Source: Mycobacterium sherrisii (GTDB lineage Bacteria > Actinomycetota > Actinomycetes > Mycobacteriales > Mycobacteriaceae). From it: a DNA stretch of 64,000 nt. The position numbers and the translations under genes are program-made. This document shows positions 45,280 through 49,302 of the stretch, piece after piece. How positions within the stretch are numbered: position 1 is the stretch's first letter; each line of letters begins with the position of its first letter. Location of the stretch: assembly GCF_002102355.1 (NCBI RefSeq), contig NZ_LQPT01000060.1:1-64000 (forward strand), in the 5' to 3' direction. The notes below the pieces were generated by a model. That model had not been told where the DNA came from. It saw nothing but the letters and a program-made list of their open reading frames with translations, and did no database searches.

Positions 45280-45464
45280 TTATGGGGTGATCGCGGCAAG
45301 TCAAACTGAGCACACCAGCGACCTGCACAAGCCGAATCACGGTCGACTGCACACTGGTTAACCTTGGTAACTACGACATGCCCGACCAGATCCGCGAGCC
45401 GGCGTGCCAGCGGATCGGGGCGGGCTGGGCGTCCGGACGTCGGGTGACGACGTAGACTTTCCTG

Positions 45465-45548
45465 GTCGAGAGGCGTTGCAACGGTTCGCCGGTTCCTCCG
45501 GTGTCCGCCACGCTCGGCAGAGTCAAGGACGCCTTCCGCTACGGAAGG
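45465..45548 (+). ncRNA. SAH riboswitch-like element controlling metH
   Basis: Stem P1 is GTCGAG (45465-45470) with CTCGGC (45513-45518). P2, a pseudoknot, is AGGCGT (45471-45476) with ACGCCT (45529-45534). Between them TGCAACGG leads into a P4 hairpin (45482-45507, inner stem CCGG-TTCCT-CCGG), and CCACGCTCGG closes it. This is the order and much of the sequence of the SAH riboswitch. A competing 7-bp hairpin CCTTCCG (45532-45538)/CGGAAGG (45542-45548) covers the metH ribosome site and shares 45532-45534 with P2, so SAH binding should free the site and switch metH on. Confidence 0.78.
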
Positions 45549-45555
45549 AACGTAC

Positions 45556-49302
<3,747 letters not shown>

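Follow-up and report, generated by a model that had tools for sequence, protein, structure and literature searches.

What does the short RNA leader in front of metH in Mycobacterium sherrisii sense, and how would it act on the gene? The gene lies in a stretch of 64,000 nucleotides (contig NZ_LQPT01000060.1 of assembly GCF_002102355.1, positions 1 to 64,000), which we call the window, and the element of interest occupies positions 45465-45548, directly upstream of it. An original prediction made from the sequence letters had read this leader as an S-adenosylhomocysteine (SAH) riboswitch that turns translation on. Our computational follow-up points the same way: with a probability of roughly 0.9, the metH leader would be an SAH-class riboswitch that turns translation ON, resembling the family RF01057, in an actinobacterial variant form.

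Architecture of the metH leader and its kinship with RF01057

All of the parts named in the original prediction, namely P1, the pseudoknot, the internal hairpin and the 7-bp hairpin downstream, are present where they had been placed (Table 1). The names are another matter, as 'P2' for the pseudoknot and 'P4' for the internal hairpin differ from Rfam-style use. The downstream hairpin is a perfect 7-bp stem that covers GGAAGG and has three bases, 45532-45534, in common with the 3' arm of the pseudoknot.

Table 1. Features of the metH leader, in window coordinates. Read from the window, the order of the parts in 45465-45548 is GUCGAG-AGGCGU-UGCAA-CGG-hairpin-CCG-CCACG-CUCGGC-AGAGU-CAAGG-ACGCCU-UCCG-CUA-CGGAAGG.
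Feature	Position	Strand	Remark
-10 element TAGACT	45453-45458	+	start of the transcript predicted at or near P1's first base
P1 5' arm GUCGAG	45465-45470	+	Rfam alignment; pairs with 45513-45518
Pseudoknot 5' arm AGGCGU	45471-45476	+	pairs with 45529-45534
UGCAA core	45477-45481	+	UGC present in window; presumed equivalents of U14, G15, C16, A17 and A18 (aptamer numbering)
Internal hairpin	45482-45507	+	outer CGG/CCG; apical part variable
CCACG core	45508-45512	+	45510 taken to be A29 and 45511 position 30 (aptamer numbering); 45511 is C here, G in Proteobacteria
P1 3' arm CUCGGC	45513-45518	+	Rfam alignment, covariation
CAAGG	45524-45528	+	45527 taken to be position 46 and 45528 G47 (aptamer numbering); 45527 is G here, C in Proteobacteria
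Pseudoknot 3' arm ACGCCU	45529-45534	+	pairs with 45471-45476
Anti-Shine-Dalgarno (anti-SD) hairpin, 45532-45538/45542-45548	45532-45548	+	7 bp, -9.0 kcal/mol
Shine-Dalgarno (SD) GGAAGGA	45543-45549	+	6 nt upstream of the GTG start
metH, B12-dependent methionine synthase, 1248 aa, GTG start	45556-49302	+	Pfam domains: Met_synt_B12, S-methyl_trans, Pterin_bind, two B12-binding

At the Rfam gathering cut-offs, no SAH match was found in the whole window, which returned only an mraW RNA and a tRNA, and RF01057 had no match in the whole genome at E<=0.001. The mraW RNA (RF01746, 690-793, + strand, 73.3 bits) is presumably the known actinobacterial leader that precedes a division gene cluster. In a permissive scan of 45380-45620, however, RF01057 was the top match (E 0.0064 over 4227 families), aligning over its full length (1-78) at 45462-45541 with 25.1 bits. 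A search with the family model, which had been named as a check, thus gives the full-length alignment but stays below the cut-off of 37 bits. In the window's family, RF01057 matches occur in 5/151 genomes, one of them above the cut-off (L001, 37.6 bits), while outside the family 10 of the 20 order loci scanned (regions upstream of ahcY, metH, MOSC and adenosine deaminase genes) pass it, the best with 46.0 bits (L295). The mycobacterial copies scanned all score below the cut-off, and because members from related genera exceed it, they are best seen as the low-scoring end of a qualifying lineage. We do not read the strict searches as a sign that an SAH element is absent, because the permissive local scan and the lineage members above the cut-off indicate otherwise.

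With the proteobacterial RF01057 riboswitch, the leader shares P1, the internal hairpin, the pseudoknot, the UGC and CCA-type contact positions and the placement before SAH-cycle genes, and in several proteobacterial copies inspected by eye an anti-SD hairpin likewise abuts the pseudoknot arm. Unlike them, the copies examined in the genus precede metH rather than ahcY, and the actinobacterial loci have C30-G46 for G30-C46, a difference taken up below. The SAM/SAH riboswitch RF01727 and SAM-IV sense related ligands; their folds differ from that of the SAH riboswitch, and neither gave an Rfam match at the metH leader in the window scans.

Comparison with relatives adds support at the level of the RNA. 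In an alignment of 22 leaders (A1), 94.3% of the structure is paired, a figure that drops to 35-43% when the structure is slid, and three of five covariation measures beat all 500 shuffles; the other two, reached by 54 and 89 of 500 shuffles, are not clear of them. The outer three pairs of the internal hairpin are invariant in this alignment and the next pairs covary, being unpaired in 4, 4 and 14 of the 22 leaders, and the apex varies in both sequence and length among species. For wider comparisons, cores were read by a parser in which UGC, A29 and GCU are obligatory and a good pseudoknot following AA is favoured; UGC and A29 are found in 60/60 order copies and in 93/99 proteobacterial loci. 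The six pseudoknot pairs are retained in 118/118 distinct cores (31 actinobacterial and 87 proteobacterial), a count that is partly built in, since copies with poor pseudoknots are discarded in parsing, and a 6-bp partner arose by chance in 345/4300 shuffled tails. Both-sided exchanges between GC and AU are seen at pseudoknot positions 1, 2, 5 and 6, and at position 4 in a single sequence. The P1 pairs are retained between the lineages with U-G/U-A/C-G changes. L130, which has diverged furthest among the copies of the family, reaches 40 bits with our lineage model R1 and carries double changes in both P1 (UCUGAG/CUCAGA) and the pseudoknot (AGACGC/GCGUCU). The covariation across relatives that the original prediction had named as a check was observed, with a covarying pseudoknot and P1 pairs kept through exchanges, and it joins the sub-threshold Rfam match and the lineage members above threshold in supporting, in silico, the SAH-riboswitch identity.

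Could a protein, such as a repressor or a translational regulator, bind the conserved leader in place of a metabolite? Within the genus the core varies very little, as can be the case for protein sites. Against such a site speak the alignment to a metabolite-binding family, the covariation of the pseudoknot at the RNA level, the variable lengths of the hairpin and the overlap with the anti-SD stem, and we consider it very improbable.

Distribution and target genes

The exact core pattern is found in 129/148 genomes of the genus, once per genome, and a reversed-pattern control gave 0. The covariance model R1, built from the 22 leaders with the window among them, recovers the element in 3/19 of the pattern-less genus genomes at E below 1e-12, which brings the total to 132/148. 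On the window itself R1 scores 96.7 bits, a value to be read with the window's place in the training set in mind, and the metH leader is its only match in that genome. The next best place there (L117, 21.1 bits, E 1.03) has no parsable core and is put down to chance. We treat four other matches in the genus, with E of 0.15-0.48 in genomes that lack a strong match, in the same way. Beyond the genus, R1 matches 90/298 genomes of the order, in 26/76 genera, 15/151 genomes of the family and 10/396 genomes of a phylum sample in which 10 candidates were scored per genome. We prefer the order sample, because the phylum search was held to those 10 candidates per genome and included few members of the order.

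Within the genus and its relatives, the element keeps close company with its gene. Removal of 15 non-actinobacterial metH loci and of L116, a duplicate of the window, left 118 loci, of which 86 were parsed (73 distinct sites, from the genus and relatives). A MetH motif lies downstream in 82 of these 86, the exceptions being L001, L005/L126 (one site) and L130, whose targets according to Pfam are an adenosine deaminase (L001), a methyltransferase (L126) and a GNAT acetyltransferase (L130). The only MetH seen in 11 of the 16 genus genomes that lack the element has 43-48% identity to the N-terminus of the window's protein (L242, L243 and L245-L253); of the other five, one has a truncated 90% MetH match, one a fragment and three none. 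The element thus seems to accompany a single metH type, as judged from the part of the 132 genomes in which the downstream gene was checked. Twelve loci with the other metH type or the truncated copy were scanned for other RNA families and gave no Rfam match at E<=0.5. A single match to SAH hydrolase is present in the window's genome.

The best 80 metH loci comprise 34 with the element, 31 actinobacterial loci without it and 15 unparsed non-actinobacterial loci. Among those with the element are numerous named species of Mycobacterium and Mycolicibacterium, as well as Prauserella, Nocardioides marmorisolisilvae, a Frankiales MAG and a Propionibacteriaceae MAG. A mycobacterium-like metH (85% identity) with the element is also found on a contig labelled as an Acidobacteria MAG (L015), which is probably mis-binned. 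Nocardioides-type metH leaders (L027, L041, L048, L054, L056, L060 and L062-L064) have no SAH element and show another conserved stretch, GTGCCACNATNTGGGAACCCTGTCCGC...GGACG...TTCCTAGGCTGG, within about 120 nt before metH. The one such leader that was scanned, L027, gave no Rfam match, and the stretch from GTGCCACNATNTGGGAACCCTGTCCGC to TTCCTAGGCTGG might serve as a promoter or an operator.

Outside the window's family, 60 of the 72 order matches were taken for a count of targets (L282-L341). Downstream of them lie 31 MetH, 19 AhcY, 3 MOSC, 2 adenosine deaminase, 2 MetK and 2 methyltransferase genes and one unassigned gene (L294); fifty were named by motif, eight by Pfam and one by eye (L327, AhcY), and for each kind Pfam confirmed between one and three representatives. 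The link to metH that the original prediction had drawn holds up in silico, and ahcY and further genes of the SAH cycle join metH as targets. SAH is the likeliest ligand, because AhcY, MetH and adenosine deaminase use SAH or its products as substrates. MetK and MOSC are more surprising targets. The two metK copies (L320 and L325) place an SAH-type riboswitch with an anti-SD-like hairpin upstream of the gene for SAM synthetase, for which a fit with SAH-induced expression is not obvious; the part of PMC4239095 available to us states that proteobacterial SAH riboswitches do not control metK. At one of the MOSC loci (L321), the SAH riboswitch before the MOSC-domain gene (151-226) is followed about 640 nt on, on the same strand, by a cobalamin riboswitch (862-1043).

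The class itself is not new to mycobacteria. The original prediction knew of no such case, yet the 2013 survey of Sun et al. (PMC3766115) already states in its main text that SAH riboswitches were identified in Mycobacteriaceae. That element, of the same class and from the same bacterial family, is very likely the one in the metH leader; unlike the present account, the main text of the survey gives no target gene among the terms searched, and the passages available to us discuss no variant. A literature search, mostly without full texts and with the original SAH riboswitch papers outside it, turned up no mycobacterial metH SAH riboswitch and no swapped pair, and the literature searched held no prior description of the breadth of targets or of the tie to one metH type. 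For mycobacterial metC, the text available of PMC9232105 cites a SAM riboswitch.

A swapped base pair at positions 30 and 46

The junction CACGCTCGG had been described as close to the consensus. It is present, but it departs from the consensus by a lineage-wide difference that is compensated elsewhere. This emerged when 39 positions of the core were compared in two sets of loci: 146 from actinobacteria, with 133 distinct sites and 45 distinct cores, and 92 from proteobacteria, with 61 distinct cores. Of the 39 positions, 7 were fixed by the requirements of the parser and so were incapable of differing. Exactly two positions have no base in common between the lineages: the one after CCA is C in actinobacteria and G in proteobacteria, and the one after CAA is G and C, respectively. 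These are positions 30 and 46, which played no part in parsing. The pair is C30-G46 in 146/146 parsed actinobacterial loci and G30-C46 in 92/92 kept proteobacterial loci, and the two positions are complementary in both lineages. Pairing of position 46 with G31 or G15 was considered and rejected, being impossible in actinobacteria, whereas 30 and 46 can pair in both lineages.

The proteobacterial set of 99 loci consisted of 90 of 109 matches and ten loci from another search, with one in common. The parser failed on L161, L190, L216, L220 and L224, and two loci were dropped from the counts: L084, a proteobacterial metH locus with a false parse, and L213, in which the wrong arm was picked. By eye, six more proteobacterial loci are of the G/C type (L213, L161, L190, L216, L220 and L224), and L225, a weak match below the Rfam cut-off, shows no element. 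The choice of query is an unlikely cause of the C/G pattern, because a search of the family with RF01057, a model that prefers G/C, gave only the C/G type (five hits).

As far as the available text of PMC7057144 goes, the pseudoknot in the SAH riboswitch crystal structure is of the LL type, the adenine of SAH sits between C16 and A29 and is bonded by G15, and C46 contacts the homocysteine tail. The residue names in that text fit the positions assigned here. In the window, the equivalents of G15, C16 and A29, which contact the adenine, are all intact. Judging from the sequences compared, the change from G30-C46 to C30-G46 is a compensated swap beside the presumed ligand pocket, and because it is compensated we file the mycobacterial and actinobacterial element as a variant of the class. 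The swap counts as one evolutionary event, so the numbers above speak for fixation and not for repeated change.

A pocket pair altered in this way might go along with an altered ligand, the build of the SAH aptamer being kept for another adenosyl compound or at the cost of a weaker discrimination between SAH and SAM. Position 46, at the homocysteine tail in the text available of PMC7057144, is G rather than C at every actinobacterial locus compared, and MOSC and metK are not classic genes of SAH recycling. We nevertheless hold this to be distinctly improbable: the window keeps the bases that contact the adenine, the exchange at 30 and 46 is a compensated one, and the SAH-cycle genes for MetH and AhcY are the commonest targets outside the family. 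A broader proposal makes the actinobacterial pocket a distinct variant, in which the inverted G30-C46 pair retunes SAH/SAM discrimination or the ligand, joined to an order-wide regulon of ahcY, metH, adenosine deaminase, metK, MOSC and methyltransferase genes; we regard it as unlikely and retain SAH as the probable ligand.

The anti-SD hairpin and the proposed switch

A TANNNT motif ends 6-9 nt upstream of P1 in 71/72 distinct upstream sequences and in 0/72 at an equal-width control, and from this placement the RNA probably starts at P1. A strict sigma-70 two-hexamer scan upstream of the element found no promoter. No terminator-like site was found in 45380-45600; transcription termination was set aside as a mode of control for this reason, and control is probably translational.

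In all 60 distinct platforms, a stem of 5-8 bp begins within the 3' arm of the pseudoknot, with an overlap of 3-4 nt, and in 59 of them an SD motif lies within the 3' arm of that stem. CUCC arms pair with GGAG and UUCC arms with GGAA, with two exceptions, one through a U-G pair and one through a shorter stem. The overlap supports, in silico, the translational ON logic of the original prediction. In the window, the calculated probability that the SD is unpaired is 0.04 in the free leader, 0.70 with the pseudoknot arms engaged and 0.006 when an equally large control block is used; the corresponding means over 73 distinct leaders are 0.03, 0.49 and 0.05. The calculated SD opening exceeds 0.3 in 59/73 leaders, against 2/73 in the control, and is 0.3 or less in the other 14, with L130 moving in the opposite direction (it falls).

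A remnant of an SAH aptamer that has lost its switching would account for a window score below the Rfam cut-off. It would hardly account for the C30, G46 and G47 found in all 86 loci parsed from the genus and relatives, for the overlapping anti-SD stem in every one of the 60 distinct platforms, or for the association with a single MetH type (a MetH motif after 82 of these 86 loci, and the 11 of 16 element-less genomes with only the 43-48% MetH), and we give such a remnant almost no credence.

The analysis shows the anatomy of the element, its conservation and covariation, its association with genes and its calculated energetics. For a working SAH riboswitch, the following course of events is proposed, in which the ligand and the direction of the response are inferred. 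The transcript would begin at P1. When free of ligand, CCUUCCG (45532-45538) would pair with CGGAAGG (45542-45548) and hide the ribosome site. SAH would bind amid P1, the internal hairpin and the CAAGG strand and would stabilise the pseudoknot AGGCGU/ACGCCU, which in turn would draw CCU off the anti-SD hairpin and allow metH to be translated. High SAH, the product of methylation accumulating, would then lead to more MetH, and the removal of homocysteine by MetH would help SAH hydrolase to run forward.

Routine annotation would miss the mycobacterial copies, because the standard family model scores those scanned under its cut-off. The inverted pocket pair offers a clean and cheap test of how SAH riboswitches discriminate between SAH and SAM. 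Moreover, an order-wide SAH regulon is outlined, including genes that the available part of the proteobacterial survey PMC4239095 does not name for the class. For the mycobacteria themselves, the model would give the B12-dependent methionine synthase of most members sampled a direct metabolite input, in which a build-up of SAH is predicted to raise MetH.
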